Shown piece after piece: positions 4,268-27,490 of a stretch of DNA of 41,936 bases. The translations under genes were made by a program, and so were the position numbers. Under the pieces are notes generated by a model. It had not been told where the DNA came from. It made no database searches and saw nothing but the letters and a program-made list of their open reading frames with translations. Source of the DNA: a virus; the IMG/VR virus record IMGVR_UViG_3300019776_000863, positions 1 through 41,936 of that record; one strand, given 5' to 3'. Each line of letters begins with the position of its first letter. Position 1 is the first letter of the stretch.

Positions 4268-5521
4268 TCAGGTCGCCGAGTTGGCGTACCACTTGATGGG
4301 CTGGCCGGCGGAGACCAGGCGGCCGTCCGTGCGCTGGAAGGCGACGAAGCCCACCTGGCCGTTTTCGGCGAACCGCTCGTCCAGGCGCTGGATGCGGAGC
4401 GCCATCACGTCGCGCACCATGTAGTTGCGCCACTGGCCGAAGGCGATGCTCTTCGCGTTCGCGGCCATGACGGGGAAGTCCTGGTTGACGACGACCGGAT
4501 AGCCCAGCAGGCGACCCGGGACGCCGCTGACCATGGCGGTGTCTTCCATGTCGACCCAGAGCGGTTCGCCAGTCGTATCCTTCAGCTTCCGCAGGTTGCG
4601 GACGCTCAGGTCGTTCATCATCCAGGCGCAGTCGGGGGTGCGATAGGCCGGGTCGATGGAGTGCACCAGGTCGACCAGGTCGTCATAGATGACGCTCGTC
4701 GTCTGGCCCGTGGTGCCGGTCTTGCCGACCACGCCACCGGTCAGGATGCCTTCCGGCTGGGTGGTGCCGTTGCCCGTGGTGAAATGGGCGTTCTGGCCGC
4801 GCGCAAAGCGCAGGGCCAGGGCGTCGCGGATCAGCGTATCGAAGTCGAAGGCGCTGTCCTGCATCAGCTCGATCGAGATGGTCAGGAAGCCGGAGCGGTA
4901 GGTCCAAGCTTTGAGGGTCTTCGAGCCAAAGGCCAGGTCCGTGCCGGCGGCGCCTGCGGTGTTCTCACCCACGATGGTGGCGACGTTGCTGGTGTCGTCC
5001 ATCGTCGGCCAGGGCAGATCGACGCCGGTCATGGTCGGAATGACGCGGGCGACGGCGCGCATGCCGCCGAAAGCCTTCTGCGCAATCAGCAGCTCGCGCA
5101 TGAAGTCCGGGGCCACGGTGTAGCCGCCGGCCGAGTTGGTACCAACCGAGCCGGAGCCCTGGAAGTTCGGGTCCGCCTTGGTGCGGCGCTGCATTTCGAC
5201 GCGGTCGGCATCGGTCAGCCCCTGGAAGTCGCGGAGCATCCAGGCCTTGAGCAGGCGCTTCTCCCGGTCGGATTCATCGGCCTGCTGCTGCTGGCTCTTG
5301 CCGGTCACGTCGCGCACCAAGTCCCGCTCCTGCGAGAGGTCGCTGGCCACCGCATCGGCCCGTTCGGCCTTTTCGATGACGCCCAGCAGGCGGTCCGCCT
5401 CGGCCATCATCGTGTCGAACTGGCCTTCCTGCTCTGCGGTCAGGTCCGGCAGGGCGATGAGGGCGCGCGCGTCGTTCACCAGCTTCGCGCGCTTGGCGCG
5501 AAGGTCCTTCGCAACACTCAT
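4268..5521 (-). CDS. Major capsid protein, HK97 family
   Basis: The protein has 417 residues. The first ~100 form the charged coiled-coil delta (scaffolding) domain: KDLRAKRAKLVNDARALI, DTMMAEADRLLGVIEKAERAD and later the QQQQADESDREKRL linker. A Gly/Ser-rich junction follows (NFQGSGSVGTNSAGGYTVAP), where the upstream-encoded protease is expected to cut. The HK97 core follows: F..MRAVARVIPTMTGVDLPWPT, an FGSKTLKAWTYRSGFLTISIEL strand, RFARGQNAHFTTGNGTTQPEGIL with GNGTTQPEGI typical of this family, and SIDPAYRTPDCAWMMNDLSV. It lies directly after the portal-protease pair. Strong hairpins lie on both sides of the gene. Confidence 0.96.
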   Translation of the reverse strand: MSVAKDLRAKRAKLVNDARALIALPDLTAEQEGQFDTMMAEADRLLGVIEKAERADAVASDLSQERDLVRDVTGKSQQQQADESDREKRLLKAWMLRDFQGLTDADRVEMQRRTKADPNFQGSGSVGTNSAGGYTVAPDFMRELLIAQKAFGGMRAVARVIPTMTGVDLPWPTMDDTSNVATIVGENTAGAAGTDLAFGSKTLKAWTYRSGFLTISIELMQDSAFDFDTLIRDALALRFARGQNAHFTTGNGTTQPEGILTGGVVGKTGTTGQTTSVIYDDLVDLVHSIDPAYRTPDCAWMMNDLSVRNLRKLKDTTGEPLWVDMEDTAMVSGVPGRLLGYPVVVNQDFPVMAANAKSIAFGQWRNYMVRDVMALRIQRLDERFAENGQVGFVAFQRTDGRLVSAGQPIKWYANSAT

Positions 5522-5530
5522 GGTGGGTAT

Positions 5531-5559
5531 CCTCTGTTTAGAGGCCGCCCGTGGCGGCC
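5531..5559 (-). promoter_or_regulatory. Two adjacent hairpins in the capsid leader
   Basis: Plus-strand bases 5531-5544 form CCTCT-GTTT-AGAGG and 5543-5559 form GGCCGCC-CGT-GGCGGCC. Both are perfect stems that share a border and cannot fully form at once. On the minus strand they precede the capsid start (5521) by 9 nt, with the ribosome binding site in the first stem's 3' arm. This could tune capsid translation. The function is inference. Confidence 0.5.
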
Positions 5560-10904: not shown

Positions 10905-11052
10905 TTTGGTTCGATTGCGGTCCAAGTTCCAAGTTCCACTTTCTCCCCTCGTTTTCCCTTTGAGGCAAAAAAAGGTCGAAGGGGAAAGAAATTTTAGAAG
11001 GTTGTGGGAATCCGGTCTAAAATTGGAACTTGGAACTTAAACCGGATTCGAA
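10905..11052. repeat. 148-bp dispersed element, copy 1
   Basis: This aligns end to end without net length change with 21791-21938. The left arm holds two tandem CCAAGTT heptamers (10921-10937) and the right arm (11023-11043) is its inverted complement, with two mismatches near the outer end (AA for GG). The core carries TTTGAGGCAAAAAAAGG, identical in both copies. It lies between the NusG-like gene and the first gene upstream of it, and encodes the last residues of that gene. Possible roles are a regulatory site, a replication origin with iteron-like arms, or a MITE-like insertion. Confidence 0.85.
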
Positions 11053-11242
11053 ACATCCTGCGTTCTTCGTCTGATTCTCCTCCGCATCCAGACCAACGCA
11101 CCGCCAGACGGATCTTCTTCTCTTCGACACAATAGATGTTCAACAGCGTCTTGAAGCTGAATCCACATCCAAGCTTTGGCGACTCTTTGAACATCGCCGC
11201 AGAGATATTCCTCTCTGTTTCCGAAAACTTTGCTTCTTTCAT
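10994..11242 (-). CDS. Small hypothetical protein
   Basis: The protein has 82 residues: MKEAKFSETERNISAAMF..., with a central FSFKTLLNIYCVEEKKIRLAVRW and a charged C-terminus whose last ~18 residues are encoded inside the 148-bp repeat. The ATG at 11242 has only a weak GGTGGG-type ribosome binding site. The longer open frame crosses a tandem repeat and reads as Gly/Val/Trp low complexity. It is not recognised. It lies at the downstream end of the replication operon, after the PD-(D/E)XK nuclease. Confidence 0.5.
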   Translation of the reverse strand: MKEAKFSETERNISAAMFKESPKLGCGFSFKTLLNIYCVEEKKIRLAVRWSGCGGESDEERRMFRIRFKFQVPILDRIPTTF

Positions 11243-20376: not shown

Positions 20377-21209
20377 CACATCCGACCCTGGTCGTTGGTC
20401 TTGCTCGGGGCCGTCTCCTCCTGCATCGAGGCGACGTCCGCTGTAGCCTTGCCGCTCTTCAGGGACTCGACCAGCGAGAGGATCTGTGGGAAGAACACCT
20501 TCCAGTCGATGGCGTGGACAACGCAGTAGTCCTTGATCGGCACACCACGCTCCACCGTCCAGCCATACCATTCACCCTCGTTGTTGCTCTCCGGCGCGGA
20601 TTGGAGAGTGTAGGTGCGGTAGAACAGCGGAGGAGTGAACTCCGAACCGTCCGGCCGGTTGAGGACCTCGCCGGTGGCCATCGTCAGCCAGCGGCGGGAC
20701 TTGCGCAGTTGTGTGCTGGCGAACGGGATGAAGCTGCGTCGACGCCCAGCCGACATGTTGAAGCCGAAGAACTGCGATGTCTCCATGATGTAGTTGCCGT
20801 TGGGGAGGATCAGACGGCCCTTCTCCCCTTCGACGCAGTCGTCGAGGATCTCGGCGCCATGCACGCCGCAGAGACCCTTGCCGGAGGCGCGCGGTGCCCA
20901 CTCCAGATAGTCCTTGCGGAACAGCACCGGCAGGAAGATGATGCCGTCTGGGAAGAGCTCCCCGGTTCCGACGTCGCAGATGACGCCTTCCTCGGCGCCC
21001 TGAATGAAGGCGGAGTTGTTCCGCTTCAGCTGCGGCGACAGAGCCTGGAGGATGGAGATGCGCGGGATGAGGATGTCGGAAGAGGTGACATTCTCCAGCC
21101 CTGCGCCAGCGTGGGAGCTGAACTCGTCGGTCGTGGTGACCAATGCGCCGCCAGAGGCAGCGTCTTCGACCGCGGGCAGATTCTCGACGGTCCTGGGTGT
21201 CTTGGCCAT
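20376..21209 (-). CDS. Conserved phage replication-locus protein, possibly ssDNA-binding
   Basis: The protein has 277 residues and is the first gene of the minus-strand replication operon. It has a low-complexity N-terminus, then SSDILIPRISILQALSPQLKRNN, GEEG-type turns, LFPDGIIFLPVLFRKDYLEW, and a long mixed region rich in aromatic and basic residues (RRRSFIPFASTQLRKSRRWL, PPLFYRTYTLQSAPESNNEGEWYGW). The I-P-R-(I/L)-x-(I/L)-L-Q signature is widespread in phage replication loci. A single-stranded DNA-binding role is plausible from context and composition but not shown. An AAGGA ribosome binding site and a hairpin 23 nt upstream precede the ATG. Confidence 0.6.
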   Translation of the reverse strand: MAKTPRTVENLPAVEDAASGGALVTTTDEFSSHAGAGLENVTSSDILIPRISILQALSPQLKRNNSAFIQGAEEGVICDVGTGELFPDGIIFLPVLFRKDYLEWAPRASGKGLCGVHGAEILDDCVEGEKGRLILPNGNYIMETSQFFGFNMSAGRRRSFIPFASTQLRKSRRWLTMATGEVLNRPDGSEFTPPLFYRTYTLQSAPESNNEGEWYGWTVERGVPIKDYCVVHAIDWKVFFPQILSLVESLKSGKATADVASMQEETAPSKTNDQGRM

Positions 21210-21403
21210 GGTGTGTCCTTGTCGGTTTGGCAGCCGCTCCGATGCGGCGAGGGTAAGCTTGCCCGATCGGCCAAGAAAAAGAAAGGGTCGAATACCTTTT
21301 CCAGGAAACTTTTTTTGATTCCACGAAACACGTTGTTATCGCTTAATAATTTTCGATCGGCCCTGCAACTTTTTTGTTGCCTTCTGTGCAGATCCAGGAG
21401 AGG
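21210..21403. promoter_or_regulatory. Divergent control region between the two early operons
   Basis: This AT-rich gap separates the minus replication operon (start 21209) from the plus operon. It holds two copies of CGATCGGCC exactly 90 bp apart (21264-21272, 21354-21362), each with a CGATCG palindrome. It also holds an 11-bp direct repeat TTCC(A)(G/C)GAAAC at 21299-21309 and 21319-21329, 20 bp apart, about two helical turns. A 5-bp hairpin at 21233-21248 lies 23 nt before the minus start codon. Both promoters should be here. I see no convincing -35/-10 pair, so the promoters themselves remain unassigned. Confidence 0.55.
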
Positions 21404-21451
21404 ATGATCATGTTTGGAGGGCAAGCCTCTAAGAGAGAAGGAGTCAGGACG
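21366..21451 (+). promoter_or_regulatory. Leader cassette A: T-box and hairpin
   Basis: CAACTTTTTTGTTG (21366-21379) is followed by GATCCAG, a stem TTGGAGG / CCTCTAA (21414-21432, one G-U pair, loop GCAAG) and an AGAAGGAG ribosome binding site. The distance from the box to the start at 21452 is 86 nt, exactly as in the leader at 25463. The two leaders can be aligned without gaps. Confidence 0.7.
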
Positions 21452-21550
21452 ATGAAGAAAGAGAAGCTAAAAGATAACTGCGAGACGGTCCGCGCATTCC
21501 CGATGGGCAAAGGTTCCATTGATTCCTCGCTAACCGGGTTTGGCCGATAG
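21452..21550 (+). CDS. Small basic peptide
   Basis: The peptide has 32 residues: MKKEKLKDNCETVRAFPMGK and a short tail. The ATG at 21452 is preferred because it aligns with the start of the DUF932 gene in the matching leader and follows AGAAGGAGTCAGGACG. An in-frame ATG at 21404 would give 48 residues. It is lysine-rich and unrecognised. It is the first potential gene of the plus operon. Coding potential is moderate at this length. Confidence 0.45.
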   Translation: MKKEKLKDNCETVRAFPMGKGSIDSSLTGFGR

Positions 21551-21576
21551 TCATAAAACACCGAGGAGTCCGACCG

Positions 21577-21732
21577 ATGTCCAACGAACCGATCAAGCCA
21601 ACGCATGTCGTCCTTTGGGTTCTGCTCAGCGCATCCATTTGGGGCGTCGTGGTCTTCCTTGCTGCCAACTACTTGATCCCAGCAGCGACCTTCGTCGTGG
21701 TTGTCTTCGGGGTCATGCTCGGCGCAATCTGA
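21577..21732 (+). CDS. Small two-helix membrane protein
   Basis: The protein has 51 residues from ATG 21577 with a GAGGAG ribosome binding site. Two hydrophobic segments are separated by a short polar turn: about residues 11-31 (VVLWVLLSASIWGVVVFLAA) and 37-51 (TFVVVVFGVMLGAI). The short charged N-terminus (MSNEPIKP) precedes the first. It is probably an inner-membrane hairpin made early. It could be a holin-like, superinfection-exclusion or other membrane-acting peptide; none can be chosen from sequence. It lies between the small basic peptide and the 148-bp repeat. Confidence 0.6.
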   Translation: MSNEPIKPTHVVLWVLLSASIWGVVVFLAANYLIPAATFVVVVFGVMLGAI

Positions 21733-21790
21733 AAGAGTCGATCCGGCTAGGATTTTGGCAAATCCTTTGGCAGGAGGGGGATTGGCTGAG

Positions 21791-21938
21791 TTTGGATCGA
21801 ACCCGGTCCAAGTTCCAAGTTCCATTTCCCCCCCTCGTTTTCCCTTTGAGGCAAAAAAAGGTCGAAGGACGAAGAAAAGTTGGAAGGTTGTGGGAATCCG
21901 TTCGAAAATTGGAACTTGGAACTTGGACCGGAAACGAA
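21791..21938. repeat. 148-bp dispersed element, copy 2
   Basis: This is the partner of 10905-11052 in the same orientation. Its arms are perfect inverted complements over about 21 bp (21803-21823 and 21910-21930), built of tandem CCAAGTT units, with an 86-nt core between them. It lies between the small membrane protein gene and the leader of the putative cysteine peptidase, in DNA that I do not read as coding. A full-length RNA could fold on itself. See the findings for interpretation. Confidence 0.88.
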
Positions 21939-21954
21939 TCTTTCATAGGCAGGA

Positions 21955-22051
21955 GACGATTTCTGTTGCCTTGTTGAAGAGCATTGGCCCAAACTCTCTT
22001 TATCGGGAAAACCCACCGGCCCTCCCGAGCCGAGTGACCAGGAAGACGACA
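21955..22051 (+). promoter_or_regulatory. Leader cassette E: TTTCTGTTGCC box and hairpin
   Basis: The box region (21955-21968) ends in TTTCTGTTG followed by CCTTGTTG. A 6-bp stem TCGGGA / TCCCGA spans 22003-22028 and ends 23 nt before the ATG at 22052. The stretch after the loop (CCTCCCGAGCCGAG, then CAGGA) is nearly the same as in the leader at 22730. Confidence 0.6.
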
Positions 22052-22510
22052 ATGGCCAAGATTTCCCAGACCCAGTCCTCCTCTGAGTACAAAACGGTTC
22101 GCACCACCGGAGAAAAGAACGATTGCGCCGTGGTCTGTGTTGCTTCGGTGTGCGGTGTTTCCTACCAGGTTGCCTATGACAAGCTAAAGCAGCTTGGCCG
22201 CAAGCCTGGCAAGGGGGCCTACACCAGCCAGATCTTCGGCGCCATCAGCGACTTCGGCTTCGGCGCCAGGTTGGTCTTGACCCGGAAGATCATCGACAGC
22301 TTCCCTGGTGTGCACAAGAACCTCAAGAACATCACCACCTACCATCCTCGCCGGTTCCCTGAGTCGTTCGACCGGACCAAGGTCTACATGGCGTTCACCG
22401 TCAACAAACGCCATGTTCTGTCGATCGTCGACGGAAAGACAGTTGATTGGTCCGCCAACAAAGCTCTCCGGATCGGCCTGATTTACGAAGTCTTCAAGAG
22501 GGAGGTCTGA
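22052..22510 (+). CDS. Putative papain-like / C39-like cysteine peptidase
   Basis: The protein has 152 residues. The N-terminal GEKNDCAVVCVASVCGVSYQ places Cys25 at the start of a helix, as in papain-like and C39 peptidases. The C-terminal NKRHVLSIVDGKTVDW supplies His121 and an acidic residue (Asp127 or Asp132) in the expected strand-turn context. The intervening part has GKGAYTSQIFGAISDFG, also typical of this fold. Homologues of this shape are common in phage early regions and are mostly uncharacterised. The target is unknown. Fold and nucleophile are inferred from motifs; activity is not proven. It is preceded by its own hairpin leader. Confidence 0.68.
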   Translation: MAKISQTQSSSEYKTVRTTGEKNDCAVVCVASVCGVSYQVAYDKLKQLGRKPGKGAYTSQIFGAISDFGFGARLVLTRKIIDSFPGVHKNLKNITTYHPRRFPESFDRTKVYMAFTVNKRHVLSIVDGKTVDWSANKALRIGLIYEVFKREV

Positions 22511-22512
22511 GC

Positions 22513-22719
22513 ATGGCACAGATCGACATCAATATCGCATGGACCTTGCACCTGACTACGGATGAGCTCTGACTCATCCTCAAGGCTCTTGGTGGCAGGC
22601 TCGAGCAAGAAGATATCGAGCCTGCCAACGATCTCGGCAATCGCCTGACAGAGCAGCGTGCAATGATCACACAGAACAATATCAAGGAGAACGACAAGCT
22701 CATCGTGAACATCTCGTAG
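22513..22719 (+). pseudogene. Small ORF interrupted by in-frame TGA
   Basis: The ATG at 22513 has a strong GGAGG ribosome binding site at good spacing (overlapping the peptidase stop region). The frame reads MAQIDINIAWTLHLTTDEL, then TGA at 22570-22572, then LILKALGGRLEQEDIEPAND and on to TAG at 22717. Read through, it is a normal-looking 68-codon small helical protein. The TGA could come from a CGA or TGG codon by one change. Other genes use TGA as a true stop, so this is a nonsense mutation or a readthrough site rather than a changed code. Confidence 0.65.
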
Positions 22720-22729
22720 ATCACCACGC

Positions 22730-22823
22730 GATATCGTTTGTTGCCTGGCGTTCCGCCGAAAGGCAAGGTTGTGGCTCGGGTCCAAGATCGGTCCTCCCGA
22801 GCCGAGCAAACAGGAGACATAAC
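22730..22823 (+). promoter_or_regulatory. Leader cassette D: box and 8-bp hairpin
   Basis: The sequence ends the box with CGTTTGTTGCC (22730-22745). A perfect 8-bp stem GGCTCGGG / CCCGAGCC (22773-22780 with 22796-22803) ends 20 nt before an ATG at 22824. AGGAGACATAAC gives the ribosome binding site. Confidence 0.6.
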
Positions 22824-22889
22824 ATGCTTCGCATCCTGAACAACCAGACCCCTGCTGGCGGCGCAGATTGCAGAATCGTCTCGACGGGC
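22824..22889 (+). other. Possible truncated gene fused in frame to the next leader
   Basis: The ATG at 22824, with its own leader and ribosome binding site, reads MLRILNNQTPAGGADCRIVS and then runs without a stop into leader C and the gene at 22978. About 22 codons precede the next box. This looks like a small gene whose 3' part was deleted. Alternatively it is a real 262-residue longer start of the following gene. Confidence 0.4.
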
Positions 22890-22977
22890 CAATTTTTGTG
22901 TTGCCTTGGGACTCTTTCTGGCGCAGTCTTCAATTCAGGAGGGACTCCCCTCCTAACCCAAGCAGGAGAAGAACCCA
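22890..22977 (+). promoter_or_regulatory. Leader cassette C: box and 7-bp hairpin
   Basis: CAATTTTTGTGTTGCCTT begins at 22890. A perfect stem AGGAGGG-ACTC-CCCTCCT (22937-22954) ends 23 nt before the ATG at 22978. GCAGGAGAAG forms the ribosome binding site. The box-to-ATG distance is 88 nt, close to the 86 nt of leaders A and B. Confidence 0.65.
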
Positions 22978-23612
22978 TGACCATCGTCGACATCGTTACT
23001 GAGCTGAGCGGCCCGCAAGTCCGCGCTCTCAGCGAGATCATCTCCGGTTCCGAAATCAAGCGGGCCGAGAACAAGTTCGGGCAGATCGCCCGGATGGTGA
23101 AGATCGTGTCCGAAAAGGGCATCGACGATCCGGCGATGTTCGTCAGCGGCCTGCTGAGCCTCTCCTTCGAGGAGGCGAAAATTAAGGCTGCACAGTCCAT
23201 CAGTCCCAGCAACCCGCAGCTGGCCCGCGAGGCCACGCTCGAGATCAAGGAGAAGGCCATCGTGCCGGACGTCGAGACCAAGACTCTGGAGAAAACCACC
23301 GAAGAGGCGGAGCAGCCGAAGAAGGGCCGCAAGTCCAAGGCGCCGAAGGAGCCCAAGGCGCCGAAGGAGCCCAAGGCTCCGAAGGACCCGACCGACTCCG
23401 CCAACCGCATCGGCAGCAAATCGCTGAAGATCATCAACGCACTGATCGGCAACAACCCGCGGCGCCCCAACAGCCACGGCTTCCGCTCGATGCAGATCAT
23501 CCTCGATGCGCCGCCGAACACCCTTACCGTCAAGAACTTCGTCGATAAGGGTGGCCGGCTGAACGATCTGCGCTGGGACATCGACCACCAGAACGTCAAG
23601 TTGGAGGACTGA
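22978..23612 (+). CDS. Conserved phage protein with KAPKEP linker
   Basis: The protein has 211 residues from ATG 22978. The N-terminal helical domain (1-~110) is followed by a low-complexity linker with KAPKEP repeats (about 120-140), encoded by near-perfect 18-bp tandem units. A C-terminal module follows, starting NRIGSKSLKIINALIGNNPR and ending GRLNDLRWDIDHQNVKLE. The N-P-x-R-P, V..F...GG and DLRWD patterns recur in small phage proteins with a winged-helix-like look. Nucleic-acid binding is plausible. The function is unknown. It lies upstream of the helicase. Confidence 0.6.
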
Positions 23613-23630
23613 TCGTCCTTCCGCCACATC

Positions 23631-23655
23631 CCAGGACGGTGCGAGACCGTCCTGG
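23631..23655 (+). promoter_or_regulatory. 10-bp hairpin before the helicase gene
   Basis: CCAGGACGGT-GCGAG-ACCGTCCTGG is a perfect 10-bp stem with a 5-nt loop, ending 22 nt before the GTG at 23678. There is no T-tract, so it is not an evident terminator. The spacing to the start matches the other plus-strand hairpins. Confidence 0.7.
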
Positions 23656-23677
23656 GAGCAACATGTGAGGTGCCTAA

Positions 23678-25324
23678 GTGAGCCAGATCTTCCTTCAGAT
23701 CAAAGACGATCAAGCGATCCTGCGATGCAAGGTTTCTTCTACACTCCTTGCAGTCCTGCCAGGCATCGAAGGTCGGCGCAGCTGGATCCGCGAAGGAGGT
23801 GAGGCCAAGGGATTGACCTTCGAACCGAGCACACACAATCTTTCTGTCTTGTCTGCTCTTCCAGGCTTCAAGGATGCCCTGCTGCAGATCAACGCTAAGT
23901 CATCTCCGGCAAGGGCTTTTCGGACCAAGGAACGTCCTCCGAAGACCGTCCCGCGCCCCCACCAGACCAAGGCTCTAGAGCGCATCGGCGACAACGCATC
24001 ATTCGCGGTGTTCGCGGACCAGGGCACTGGCAAGACCAAGATCGCCATCGACTGGTCCGTTCAGCTGTACGACGAAGGAGCGATCACTGGCTGCCTCGTC
24101 GTCAGCAAGAAGGGAGTTCACAGGCAGTTTGCCGAAGAACAGCTCGAAGAGCATTGCGCAGCGGACTACTTCGCCACGTTTTGGGGCCAGAAGAAAAGCA
24201 CGATCCGTGCTCCGCGGAAGCCGGTGCTGGAATACGCAACCATCAACTACGACGCCATCAAACATCCTCGTGGCAGGGACTGGGCGACAGAGTTCTGCAA
24301 GAGGCACCGCGGCAAGCTGTTGATCATCGCAGATGAGTCGCAGGAGATCAAGAATGTCAAATCTGGTCGCTGGAATGAGATGGCATCGCTCAAGCTGTAC
24401 TCCTCGCATCGGTTGCTTCTCACCGGAACACCCATCGCCAGGGATCTGACAGACGAGTGGTCGCAGCTGCTGTGGCTGAACGAGAACATCCTCGGAATCC
24501 GTTACATCACGACATTCAGAAGTGAATTCTGTGTCATGGGTGGATTCGACGGCAAACAGGTCATCGGCCACAAGAACCTGCAGAGGTTCCGCGAGATTAC
24601 ATCTCCGCACGTCTTCCGAATCACCAAGGAGGAGCTCGACCTCCCTCCGAAGCAGTACAAGACATGGAAGTTTGACATGTCTGATGCGCAGATCTCCGCG
24701 ATCAACGAGATCCGAGGCTCATCGAAGAAATCCACGAGTCGCGGAGACATCTCTCAGGCTTTGATGCGCGTCCAGCAGGTCAGCAACGGATATCTGTACA
24801 AGACAGATGACGATGAAGAGTTCTCTTTCTTCTCCAACCCGGAGCAAAATCCTCGCATCCAGGCAGCGACAGAGTGGCTGAACTCCTTCGATGGCAAGGC
24901 TCTGATCTGGTGCAGATTCAAGAAGGACATCGCCATTCTGCGCTGCATCCTCGGCAGCAAAGCTGTCTACCACAGCGGTGAGGTGTCGGACTCCGAGCGC
25001 AAGCGCGGCATCGAGAGCTTCATGGACCGCGGCGGAGCACGCATCCTCGTCGCCAATCCGCAGTCAGCTGGCACCGGCTTGAATCTGCAGGGTCTGTGCA
25101 ACAATGTGCTGTACTACAGCAACTCGTTCAACGCCATCGATCGCTGGCAGAGCGAGGATCGTGTTCATCGCATCGGCACTGTCGGCACAGTGCTGTACAC
25201 CGACCTGATCGCAGATGGAGGGGTCGACAGATACATCATCACCAACCTGCGGAAGAAGAAAGGCATCAGCGACTTAGCGATCGGCGACCTCGAAGCCATC
25301 CTCGCCGACGTCGGAAGGCTCTAG
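23678..25324 (+). CDS. SNF2/DEAD-type superfamily 2 helicase
   Basis: The protein has 548 residues from GTG 23678. The N-terminal ~90 residues are phage-specific. The ATPase core follows: PRPHQTKALERI (Q-motif-like), Walker A FADQGTGKTKIAIDW, LLIIADESQEIKN (DESQ instead of DEAH), LLLTGTPIARDL (motif III), and the second RecA domain with ALIWCRFKKDIAIL, VANPQSAGTGLNLQG and the motif VI RWQSEDRVHRIGT typical of SNF2 enzymes. It is likely to remodel nucleoprotein or assist replication or recombination. It has its own hairpin but no box; it may be cotranscribed with the upstream gene. Confidence 0.92.
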   Translation: MSQIFLQIKDDQAILRCKVSSTLLAVLPGIEGRRSWIREGGEAKGLTFEPSTHNLSVLSALPGFKDALLQINAKSSPARAFRTKERPPKTVPRPHQTKALERIGDNASFAVFADQGTGKTKIAIDWSVQLYDEGAITGCLVVSKKGVHRQFAEEQLEEHCAADYFATFWGQKKSTIRAPRKPVLEYATINYDAIKHPRGRDWATEFCKRHRGKLLIIADESQEIKNVKSGRWNEMASLKLYSSHRLLLTGTPIARDLTDEWSQLLWLNENILGIRYITTFRSEFCVMGGFDGKQVIGHKNLQRFREITSPHVFRITKEELDLPPKQYKTWKFDMSDAQISAINEIRGSSKKSTSRGDISQALMRVQQVSNGYLYKTDDDEEFSFFSNPEQNPRIQAATEWLNSFDGKALIWCRFKKDIAILRCILGSKAVYHSGEVSDSERKRGIESFMDRGGARILVANPQSAGTGLNLQGLCNNVLYYSNSFNAIDRWQSEDRVHRIGTVGTVLYTDLIADGGVDRYIITNLRKKKGISDLAIGDLEAILADVGRL

Positions 25325-25462
25325 GTCGGAGTAAACCGGGTGCCCGTGATCGAGGGAAGAGCAATGGGTTCAGGCCTGGAGGGTTGCCTAGTCCGCCCAT
25401 ATGCCTCCCCCTCGACCAAATTCGGAGCCTTCTTCGCAGGTCTGTCTTTTTTTGCGAGGGCA

Positions 25463-25548
25463 CAACTTTTTTGTTGTCTTTGTGGACGATCCAGAGGAAG
25501 ATGACTTTGCGGGTGGGATGGTCCCACCCAGGAAGAAGGATCGAGACG
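25463..25548 (+). promoter_or_regulatory. Leader cassette B: CAACTTTTTTGTTG box and hairpin
   Basis: The same 14-mer as at 21366 occurs at 25463-25476. It is followed by GATCCAG, a perfect 8-bp stem GGGTGGGA-TGG-TCCCACCC (25511-25529) and AGAAGGA before the ATG at 25549. All distances equal those of leader A. The stretch 25325-25462 in front holds no gene I can support. Confidence 0.7.
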
Positions 25549-26508
25549 ATGGCCCACGAGATCGAGAACGAGCAGATCGCTTACCGCGGCGAGACTCCCT
25601 GGCACGGCATCGGTGCCAGCATGGGCGACGACGCCACTCCGGAGGACTTCATGCGCGCGGCGAACCTCGACTGGCAGGTGAACCCGGCCCCTCTCTTCGT
25701 CAAGCACGAGGACGGCACCTTCACCCAGGCCAAGGGCAAGACCGCCTTCGTCCGCTCGTCGGACAAGAAGATCATGACCTACGCCAGCGACCGCTGGAAG
25801 CCGGTCCAGAACATAACGGCCATCGGCTTCATGAAGCGCTACGTCGAGGCTGGGGGCGCCAAGATGGAGACTGTCGGTGCGCTTCGCGACGGGCAGATCA
25901 TCTGGGCTCTGGCCAGGATCAACCGTTCCTTCGAGGTTCGGCCGGGCGACAAGGTGAATGGGTACATGCTCATCACCTCTCCCCACCAGGTCGGCACCTC
26001 GACGCGCATCAGCACAACGACGGTGCGTGTTGTCTGCGCCAACACCATGCGTATGGCGGACAGCGCGAGCACGACCTGGTACTCGCAGAACCACCTGTCC
26101 GATTTCGACGAGTCTTCGGCCAGGTCCGCGGTGGCGCAGGCCAGCGATGCCCTATCCAGCGCCGAAACGCGGGCCAAGACGATGGATGGTCTGAAGCTCT
26201 CCATCGAGGACGCTGTGCGCAAGGTGCTTGTCCCTGTGTTCGCCCCTGATCTGCTCGACGAGCCGATGATCATGGACGAAATCATGAACTTTGGCCTAAT
26301 GCCCAACCGCATCCAGGAGATCGTCATGAGCATTAAGCGTGCTCCTGGCGCCATCGAGGACACCGGCTGGGGCGTGATGAACGGCGTCACCCACTGGTGC
26401 GACCACGTCGGCGGCCGTACCCCAGAGACCCGGATGTTCCGCTCCTGGATCGGCGACTACTCCCGGCTCAAGATCGAGACCGAGAAGAAGATCATGGAGC
26501 TTGTCTGA
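25549..26508 (+). CDS. DUF932 family protein
   Basis: The protein has 319 residues. It starts MAHEIENEQIAYRGETPWHG, the signature N-terminus of DUF932 proteins found on phages and plasmids. Also conserved are FVRSSDKKIMTYASDRWKPV, GYMLITSPHQVGTSTRISTT, TVRVVCANTMRMA and the long helix after SSARSAVAQASDAL, ending in THWCDHVGGRTPETRMFRSW. The biochemical role of DUF932 is not established. An in-frame ATG at 25501 is rejected because the 25549 start matches the family. It lies at the end of the hairpin-leader series; strong expression in early infection is inferred. Confidence 0.9.
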   Translation: MAHEIENEQIAYRGETPWHGIGASMGDDATPEDFMRAANLDWQVNPAPLFVKHEDGTFTQAKGKTAFVRSSDKKIMTYASDRWKPVQNITAIGFMKRYVEAGGAKMETVGALRDGQIIWALARINRSFEVRPGDKVNGYMLITSPHQVGTSTRISTTTVRVVCANTMRMADSASTTWYSQNHLSDFDESSARSAVAQASDALSSAETRAKTMDGLKLSIEDAVRKVLVPVFAPDLLDEPMIMDEIMNFGLMPNRIQEIVMSIKRAPGAIEDTGWGVMNGVTHWCDHVGGRTPETRMFRSWIGDYSRLKIETEKKIMELV

Positions 26509-26517
26509 TCAACCTCC

Positions 26518-26537
26518 GGGGTCCTGCAAAGGACCCC
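26518..26537 (+). promoter_or_regulatory. 7-bp hairpin before the small gene at 26561
   Basis: GGGGTCC-TGCAAA-GGACCCC is a perfect 7-bp stem ending 23 nt before the ATG at 26561. It follows the DUF932 stop by 9 nt. No T-tract is present, so termination is not indicated; it matches the leader hairpin spacing. Confidence 0.65.
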
Positions 26538-26560
26538 CACCCCACCCAGGAGACAAACCG

Positions 26561-26758
26561 ATGAACCTCGAAAAAACCTGCGACGCCATCCGGTCGCTTA
26601 CGTCGCAAGCTCACACGCTGGCCGCCACCGCCTACAGCCGAGGCGCTGATAACCGAGCAGCCGAGGCGCTGGCCGATCTGACGCAAGCCGAGGCGCTCTT
26701 GCGGCAGGCTCTGGCAGGCATCGCGCATGCGAAAGGGCTGCTGAATGAGTGCCCCTGA
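26561..26758 (+). CDS. Small Ala-rich helical protein
   Basis: The protein has 65 residues: MNLEKTCDAIRSLTSQAHTL... It is alanine-rich, with a pattern consistent with one long helix or a helical hairpin (NRAAEALADLTQAEALLRQA). The ribosome binding site is CAGGAGACAAACCG before the ATG. It overlaps the next gene, and its hairpin leader resembles that of the genes upstream. It is not recognised as a named family. Confidence 0.6.
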   Translation: MNLEKTCDAIRSLTSQAHTLAATAYSRGADNRAAEALADLTQAEALLRQALAGIAHAKGLLNECP

Positions 26759-26933
26759 CTTCCGCGCCCTCCTCCGCGCCGCCGGCATCAGCCGCCCTTG
26801 GCTGGCCGCCCAGGTCGGCCGGACGCGCACCGTGATCGACCGCTGGTGCGCGGGCGATGCCGCGCCGCCACCGGCCGTGGTGGAATGGCTGCAGCGGCGC
26901 ATCGCGGACCCGCCGCCGAAGCTGGAGGGGTGA
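26745..26933 (+). CDS. Small helix-turn-helix protein
   Basis: The protein has 62 residues: MSAPDFRALLRAAGISRPWLAAQVGRTRTVIDRWCAGDA, then APPPAVVEWLQRRIADPP. The helix spacing and the (L)AAQVG.....I.RW..G element fit an XRE/Cro-like HTH, though without extra dimerisation elements. It is the last gene on the plus strand and runs toward the lysozyme gene; the two stops are about 24 bp apart with no evident terminator. It may be a regulator of the early-late switch, which is inference. Confidence 0.72.
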   Translation: MSAPDFRALLRAAGISRPWLAAQVGRTRTVIDRWCAGDAAPPPAVVEWLQRRIADPPPKLEG

Positions 26934-26956
26934 ACCATCGAGCGTTGCGGCAGCCG

Positions 26957-27490
26957 CTACGGCAGCCGAGGCCAGCCGTCCGGGCTGTCGATGTCACGCC
27001 AGGCGCGCTCATGGGCATCCTCGGCAGCCATGCCGAGGGCGAAAGCTGCCTCGGCCCATCGGCGCCGACGCAGACCGAGAGACGGCAGGCCGCCGGCATT
27101 GCGATAGACCTTCAGCTGCTCGGCCGCCTGGCGCCAGCGGCCGGCCAGCAACAGCCTGTGGAGCGTGGCGCCCCAGGTGCGCATGTCGCCCATGTTGTTG
27201 CAGGTCAGGATCGCCACCGCGCCCCACCGCGCCGGCAGGCCCATCGGAAAGGCCCGGGCAGCGAGCTCCGCCGCATGCCCCAGGTCGCGCCGGGCCATCG
27301 CGTTCGCCTGCTCCAGCGTGATGGCCGGAGTGGTGCGGCTGACCGGTCCCCCATCCAGCGCACGGGTGGAGCCATAGCCAATGGTCCAGACCCCCGCGCT
27401 GTCGCGGTAGGGCTTGAGACGCAACCCCTCGAAGGCCTTCGATAGCTGCAAGGCCTCCGGGGGGACGCCGCCCGTCCAGAGGCTGCTCAT
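26957..27490 (-). CDS. Endolysin, GH24 lysozyme
   Basis: The protein has 177 residues. The catalytic triad of T4-type lysozymes is visible with exact spacing: Glu21, Asp30, Thr36 in FEGLRLKPYRDSAGVWTIGYG. Later parts match the family: ITLEQANAMARRDLGHAAEL and WGAVAILTCNNMGDM and RWRQAAEQLKVYRNAGG. No signal peptide or membrane anchor is visible, so release through the holin is expected. The ATG at 27490 overlaps the stop of the small gene upstream (ATGA). It is the last gene of the late operon. Confidence 0.93.
   Translation of the reverse strand: MSSLWTGGVPPEALQLSKAFEGLRLKPYRDSAGVWTIGYGSTRALDGGPVSRTTPAITLEQANAMARRDLGHAAELAARAFPMGLPARWGAVAILTCNNMGDMRTWGATLHRLLLAGRWRQAAEQLKVYRNAGGLPSLGLRRRRWAEAAFALGMAAEDAHERAWRDIDSPDGWPRLP

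Follow-up and report, generated by a model that had tools for sequence, protein, structure and literature searches.

The window analysed here, which is the whole of IMG/VR virus record IMGVR_UViG_3300019776_000863 (41,936 bases), carries most of its genes on the minus strand; these include terminase, portal, head protein, tape measure and tail genes and, further, genes for a DNA polymerase III-type polymerase, a thymidylate synthase and a Pam3 gp34-like protein. The leaders that form the subject of this study serve a divergent operon on the plus strand (21452–26758, running to about 26933), which comprises small ORFs, a weakly C39-like protein (22052), an ORF at 22977, a SNF2-type helicase, a DUF932 gene, an ORF at 26561 and an HTH ORF at 26745. 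No match to the window was found at the DNA level among sequenced phages, and the highest identity of its polymerase to that of any known phage is about 36%. Used as a query, the polymerase retrieved 55 viral contigs at 45–61% identity (contigs are referred to below by L numbers), many of which share the divergent layout beside a gp34-like gene. The gp34-like protein, when used as the query against viral contigs, gave no match.

Before nearly every gene of the divergent operon there is a small hairpin at a fixed spot, just upstream of the ribosome site. Seven such stems were found on the plus strand, each ending 19–23 nt before a start codon. The first, TTGGAGG-GCAAG-CCTCTAA (21414–21432; 7 bp), ends 19 nt before a 32-aa ORF at 21452, and the second, TCGGGA-N14-TCCCGA (22003–22028; 6 bp, with a loop of 14), ends 23 nt before the C39-like gene at 22052. 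These are followed by GGCTCGGG-N15-CCCGAGCC (22773–22803; 8 bp), which ends 20 nt before an ATG at 22824 whose status as a start is uncertain, and by AGGAGGG-ACTC-CCCTCCT (22937–22954; 7 bp), 22 nt before the ATG at 22977. The longest, an intercistronic stem of 12 bp at 23629–23657, lies 20 nt before the GTG start of the SNF2 helicase at 23678. The DUF932 gene at 25549 is preceded at 19 nt by GGGTGGGA-TGG-TCCCACCC (25511–25529; 8 bp), and the ATG at 26561 at 23 nt by a second intercistronic hairpin, GGGGTCCT-GCAA-AGGACCCC (26518–26537; 8 bp). Measured from its first base, each hairpin begins 38–51 nt before the start codon. The stems (6–12 bp) are all different in sequence, except that the leaders of 22052 and 22824 are partly duplicated, sharing the 3′ strand of the stem (85% over 27 nt); the 5′ strand at 22824 differs, yet it still pairs. 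Near the starts, the leaders share only ordinary Shine-Dalgarno motifs of the type AGGA or GGAG. A 51-aa ORF at 21577, which like the HTH ORF at 26745 was not listed in the preliminary description, lacks a comparable stem at this distance in its leader.

In order to compare these leaders with background, the best uninterrupted stem ending 17–25 nt before the start was scored for each, and again for 1000 dinucleotide shuffles of the same leader. The summed score was 134.5, against 43.5 ± 11.9 for the shuffles (a difference of 7.6 SD), and no shuffle approached the observed value. The hairpins proposed earlier for the plus-strand starts are confirmed as real. Taken singly, in genome order, the seven leaders gave p values of 0.032, 0.067, 0.005, 0.013, 0.001, 0.002 and 0.002; five are strong by themselves (p from 0.013 to 0.001), while those at 21452 and 22052 are weak alone and lie near the shuffled background. 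Minimum free energies of the leaders correspond to z-scores of −0.5 to −5.1, the last of these being that of the stem before the helicase gene. When the score was averaged by stem-end position it peaked at 18.5 for ends 20–23 nt before the start, as against 3–7 in most other bins, and the minus-strand genes of the same genome gave a mean of only 7.6 compared with 19.2 (Mann-Whitney p = 1.6e-4). The hairpin that had also been claimed for the divergent gp34-like gene (start at 21209) is present on the minus strand, 23 nt upstream (GCCGC-ATCGGA-GCGGC, 21233–21248), but with 5 bp and p = 0.03 it is weak when taken alone. A like layout occurs outside the early operon, also on the minus strand, where GGCCGCC-ACG-GGCGGCC (5543–5559; 7 bp) ends 21 nt before the start of the major head protein at 5521.

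A further feature, which the preliminary description had missed, is a T-rich, promoter-like element upstream of the hairpin, found as CAACTTTTTTGTTGCCTT or a close copy in four of the seven leaders. The copies lie on the plus strand at 21366–21383 (this one containing TTGCCT), 21955–21972, 22890–22907 and 25463–25480, and counting from the element the hairpin starts at +48, +48, +47 and +48 respectively, with the start codons at +86 to +97. The four score 24–31 bits, the next best site on either strand of the window reaching 13.9; the remaining three leaders lack a convincing copy, that of 22824 scoring 9.3 bits. This upstream element accounts for the fixed position of the hairpin. The hairpins, their fixed position and the fixed spacing from the promoter-like element are all well supported. 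The TTGCCT or TTGTCT of the element lies 35–36 nt upstream of the hairpin, and if a sigma-70 geometry is assumed (6 + 17 + 6 + about 7), the predicted +1 falls on the first bases of the hairpin in all four leaders. No consensus sigma-70 promoter was found in the window: TTGCCT or TTGTCT is present at −35, but the −10 regions are poor, and use of these sites may depend on a phage factor. A sigma-54 promoter, weighed on visual inspection, was discarded, as the element does not fit the GG/GC spacing.

The third of these elements also bears on gene starts. The start that had been placed at 22978 is in fact at 22977, and it lies within the ORF that opens at 22824 and in the same frame, the longer ORF reading without a frame change across both the promoter-like element and the hairpin into the 22977 start. 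Since the two form one ORF they are probably not two genes, and 22977 is the likelier start because the homologue in L132 begins at the promoter-proximal ATG.

A matrix built from the four window sites alone picked out, in relatives, 12 sites scoring 18 bits or more, every one of which lies in a leader and on the correct strand; at a looser cut of 14, this matrix would hit by chance about 0.5 times in 100 kb of each strand. These sites come from L132, L115, L119, L123, L124, L005 and L173 (L115 and L173 being one contig), or about seven phages, whose DNA polymerases are about 50–60% identical to that of the window, and a broader matrix adds L116 and L135. A scan of viral contigs with the bare 17-nt motif gave 87 matches, mostly unrelated, with one true relative among them (L048, which is the contig of L132), and a scan of genome contigs gave one phage in an Alphaproteobacteria MAG (L169), which is without a clear T-rich element. 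In the relatives the hairpins, unrelated in sequence, begin at +43 to +48 from the element, mostly +46 to +48, and at hairpin-bearing sites the start codon falls mostly at +80 to +85. When 20 element sites are taken together, the stem score lies 9.8 SD above shuffles, with 9.1 for the relatives alone and 4.4 for the window alone; in this test the window leaders of 21452, 22052, 22977 and 25549 gave p values of 0.017, 0.072, 0.007 and 0.005. About 6–8 nt before the hairpins of many relatives there is a clear −10 (TTTAAT, CATAAT, GATAAA), as seen in L119, L123, L115, L124 and L135. L005 has two copies of the element, both lacking the hairpin and followed by a shorter leader (start codons at +69 and +71), which implies that the hairpin is not strictly required.

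The preliminary description had suggested a structural constraint with the stem sequence left free. This is supported by the shuffles and by the relatives, whose stems differ while their position, set by the promoter-like element, is kept. Further support comes from the compensatory changes for which it had looked to related phages; these are found in matched leaders of the relatives themselves, the nearest relatives found for the window being too diverged to align with it in the leaders. Between the DUF932 leaders of L156 and L129, which have the hairpin in the same place without a T-rich element, the stems read CACCTGGC/GCCAGGTG and CGCCTGAC/GTCAGGCG, with two double changes and no break in 8 pairs. 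L119 and L123 have CCGGC/GCCGG and CCAGC/GCTGG (C-G to U-A and G-C to A-U), and paralogous leaders of L116 have TGGCTTC/GAAGCCA and TGGTCGT/ACGACCA. One broken pair was seen, in the first leader of L123. The SNF2 gene of L132 is directly preceded by a 13-bp stem, matching the 12 bp in the window and different in sequence, and both stems lie just after the preceding ORF and without the promoter element. In two relatives (L115 1725- and L116 531-) the hairpin loop reads AAGGA, which is Shine-Dalgarno-like and might serve as a ribosome standby site.

Taken together, the leaders suggest a full module consisting of the T-rich promoter-like element, a hairpin at the predicted transcription start, a Shine-Dalgarno sequence and the start codon, in which structure rather than sequence would keep the hairpin in place. 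The reading we consider probable, with some reserve, is that the hairpins are 5′-terminal structures, provided gene by gene, which protect and standardise the front end of each mRNA. The hairpin would most likely form the extreme 5′ end of the message, shielding it from pyrophosphohydrolase and from decay of the RNase E type, and, as it would lie just beyond the ribosome footprint, it could also leave the Shine-Dalgarno sequence open whatever lies upstream. The two hairpins that lack a promoter element (23629–23657 and 26518–26537) may play the same role on RNA that is internally processed or arises by read-through. What is selected may be a stable RNA, an insulated ribosome site, or the two together. 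In E. coli, a 5′ stem-loop that leaves no more than 2–4 single-stranded nt stabilises RNAI and ompA RNA (PMC2948425, citing Emory et al. and Bouvet and Belasco). The phage leaders resemble the ompA leader and the engineered RNAI stabilisers in having a short stem-loop at, or a few nt from, the predicted 5′ end and upstream of the Shine-Dalgarno sequence, with the sequence free and the structure what counts; they differ in recurring gene by gene and across a phage group, in being tied to a promoter-like element, and in being known here from sequence.

One might instead suppose that the hairpins belong to the ends of the upstream messages, as intercistronic terminators or 3′ stabilisers, and that the tight packing of the genome simply brings them near the next start. 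A stop codon does lie 9–16 nt before the stems at 23629 and 26518, and stems with a T tail are seen at comparable positions in some other phages. However, none of the seven window stems is followed by a T tract, which means that they are not a row of intrinsic terminators; a terminator scan of the plus strand called no leader stem (its sole overlap being a weak minus-strand call at 22033–22016), and four of the seven stems stand at a fixed spacing downstream of the promoter-like element, away from upstream stops. We therefore regard this explanation as unlikely. Leader hairpins were also seen in the more distant annotated phages Erebus, Pluto, Carpasina and VA-RY-3, but several are followed by short T runs and look like terminators, and for this reason these phages were left out as support. 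Erebus (L179), a cultured Aminobacter phage with a DUF932 homologue, has hairpins of 9–15 bp before many genes, and could become a laboratory model if its leaders prove comparable.

It is also rather improbable that the stems are protein sites that switch the operon, whether as DNA palindromes (operators) or as RNA hairpins. A fixed spacing to the promoter-like element would suit an operator well enough, but the stem sequences are unrelated, whether leaders of a single phage or of different phages are compared, and a sequence-specific operator would not tolerate this. L119 and L123 keep a common loop, CGATTC, which other phages do not have.

The idea that the leaders are themselves diverged or unrecognised self-cleaving ribozymes draws its support from relatives that have true hammerheads or, in L156 and L129, another repeated structured element in the same slot. 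Type II hammerheads (RF02276; core GAAA / stem III / UH / stem I / CUGANGA) score above the Rfam cut-off in L117 (five) and L160 (two), and when the complete core was searched for, a further four came to light in L126 and seven in L136, along with three in L144, one in L142 and a third in L160. In five relatives the ribozymes form arrays, with as many as seven copies, and most copies stand directly before a gene start; in L117 they occupy the leader slot of five genes, while the ribozymes of L136, L142 and L144 lie downstream of the polymerase gene, outside the divergent operon. In the window, on the other hand, Rfam found no ribozyme in 20900–27000 even at an E of 10, nor did the core search find a hammerhead, and there is no conserved unpaired core common to the leaders, all of which makes this explanation very improbable. 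A different repeated element, TCGGCTCCGGTGTC-hairpin-GCATCCCGAACCGAT, stands before several successive genes in the divergent operon of L156 and L129; it has no Rfam match, occurs in no other IMG/VR contig, and is a candidate for a new structured RNA or ribozyme. Separately, an inverted repeat of about 130 nt with arms of GGAACTTGGAACTTGGA occurs in the window at 21803–21931 (plus strand) and at about 10948–11060 (minus strand), and in the form GGTTCCAAGTTCC...GGAACTTGGAACC in L115, L117, L132, L170, L172, L173 and L174, in many cases immediately before the SNF2 gene; it may be an origin, a pair of operators or a structured RNA. Lastly, chance self-complementarity of GC-rich leaders would account for the two stems near the shuffled background but hardly for the summed z values (window 7.6, relatives 9.1) or for the lack of signal at minus-strand genes, and it can practically be discounted.

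Returning to hairpin-first messages, the hammerheads of the sister phages suggest how these might arise by a second route. Cleavage by a type II hammerhead is predicted to yield an RNA that begins with stem I, here 6–9 bp, and the distance from the predicted cleaved 5′ end to the start codon is mostly 44–62 nt, with one at 37, as compared with 38–51 nt for the window hairpins. The simplest feature that the two routes would have in common is an mRNA that starts with a hairpin and continues into an open Shine-Dalgarno sequence; one set of phages would obtain it mainly by initiation at each gene's own hairpin, another by ribozyme cutting of a long transcript. It is possible, and we put it forward tentatively, that within one phage group the promoter-coupled 5′ hairpin and the type II hammerhead are interchangeable ways of giving each gene of an operon such a message. 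For clustered type II hammerheads of phages and prophages, upstream of single genes, it has been proposed that they divide a long phage transcript into gene-length mRNAs (Perreault et al. 2011, PMC3088659), their purpose being left open in that paper. The window elements share with the clusters described there an arrangement in which structured RNAs recur immediately before individual genes, and hammerheads stand at the same locus in sister phages; what they lack is a ribozyme core.

The start-associated sequences of cluster K mycobacteriophages (SAS/ESAS), to which the leaders had been likened, likewise recur in the leaders of non-structural genes close to the start, in some cases with inverted repeats, but the resemblance is superficial and does not reflect kinship. 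In cluster K there is a conserved 13-bp sequence together with conserved 17-bp inverted repeats, for which the formation of mRNA hairpins had little support in the analysis of its authors (PMC3203893). In the window leaders the 13-bp GGGATAGGAGCCC-type sequence is absent at the starts, where nothing is conserved beyond the Shine-Dalgarno motif, and conserved 17-bp inverted repeats are absent too, the stems (6–12 bp) varying in sequence and nonetheless pairing.

In synthetic biology, insulators of the RiboJ type place a hammerhead and a hairpin before the ribosome site. By analogy, the phage leaders would be a natural counterpart, repeated along an operon, in which a ribozyme or a hairpin sets a standard 5′ end before the gene. 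The ingredients are each known singly; a partial literature search gave no matching description of a promoter-coupled leader hairpin in phages, of the coupling of a hairpin to a promoter-like element gene by gene, or of a swap of hairpin for hammerhead among related phages.

For this poorly annotated phage group the combination of T-rich element, hairpin at +47 and start at about +80 to +87 offers a signature for promoters and true gene starts. As to the hammerheads, the plain hairpins linked to a promoter-like element that related phages have in the hammerhead slot provide a direct and testable answer to the question of purpose, namely that both devices would fix a hairpin-first 5′ end some tens of nucleotides before the start codon. 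If the two are truly interchangeable, this would explain the clustered hammerheads of phages as natural 5′-end insulators.
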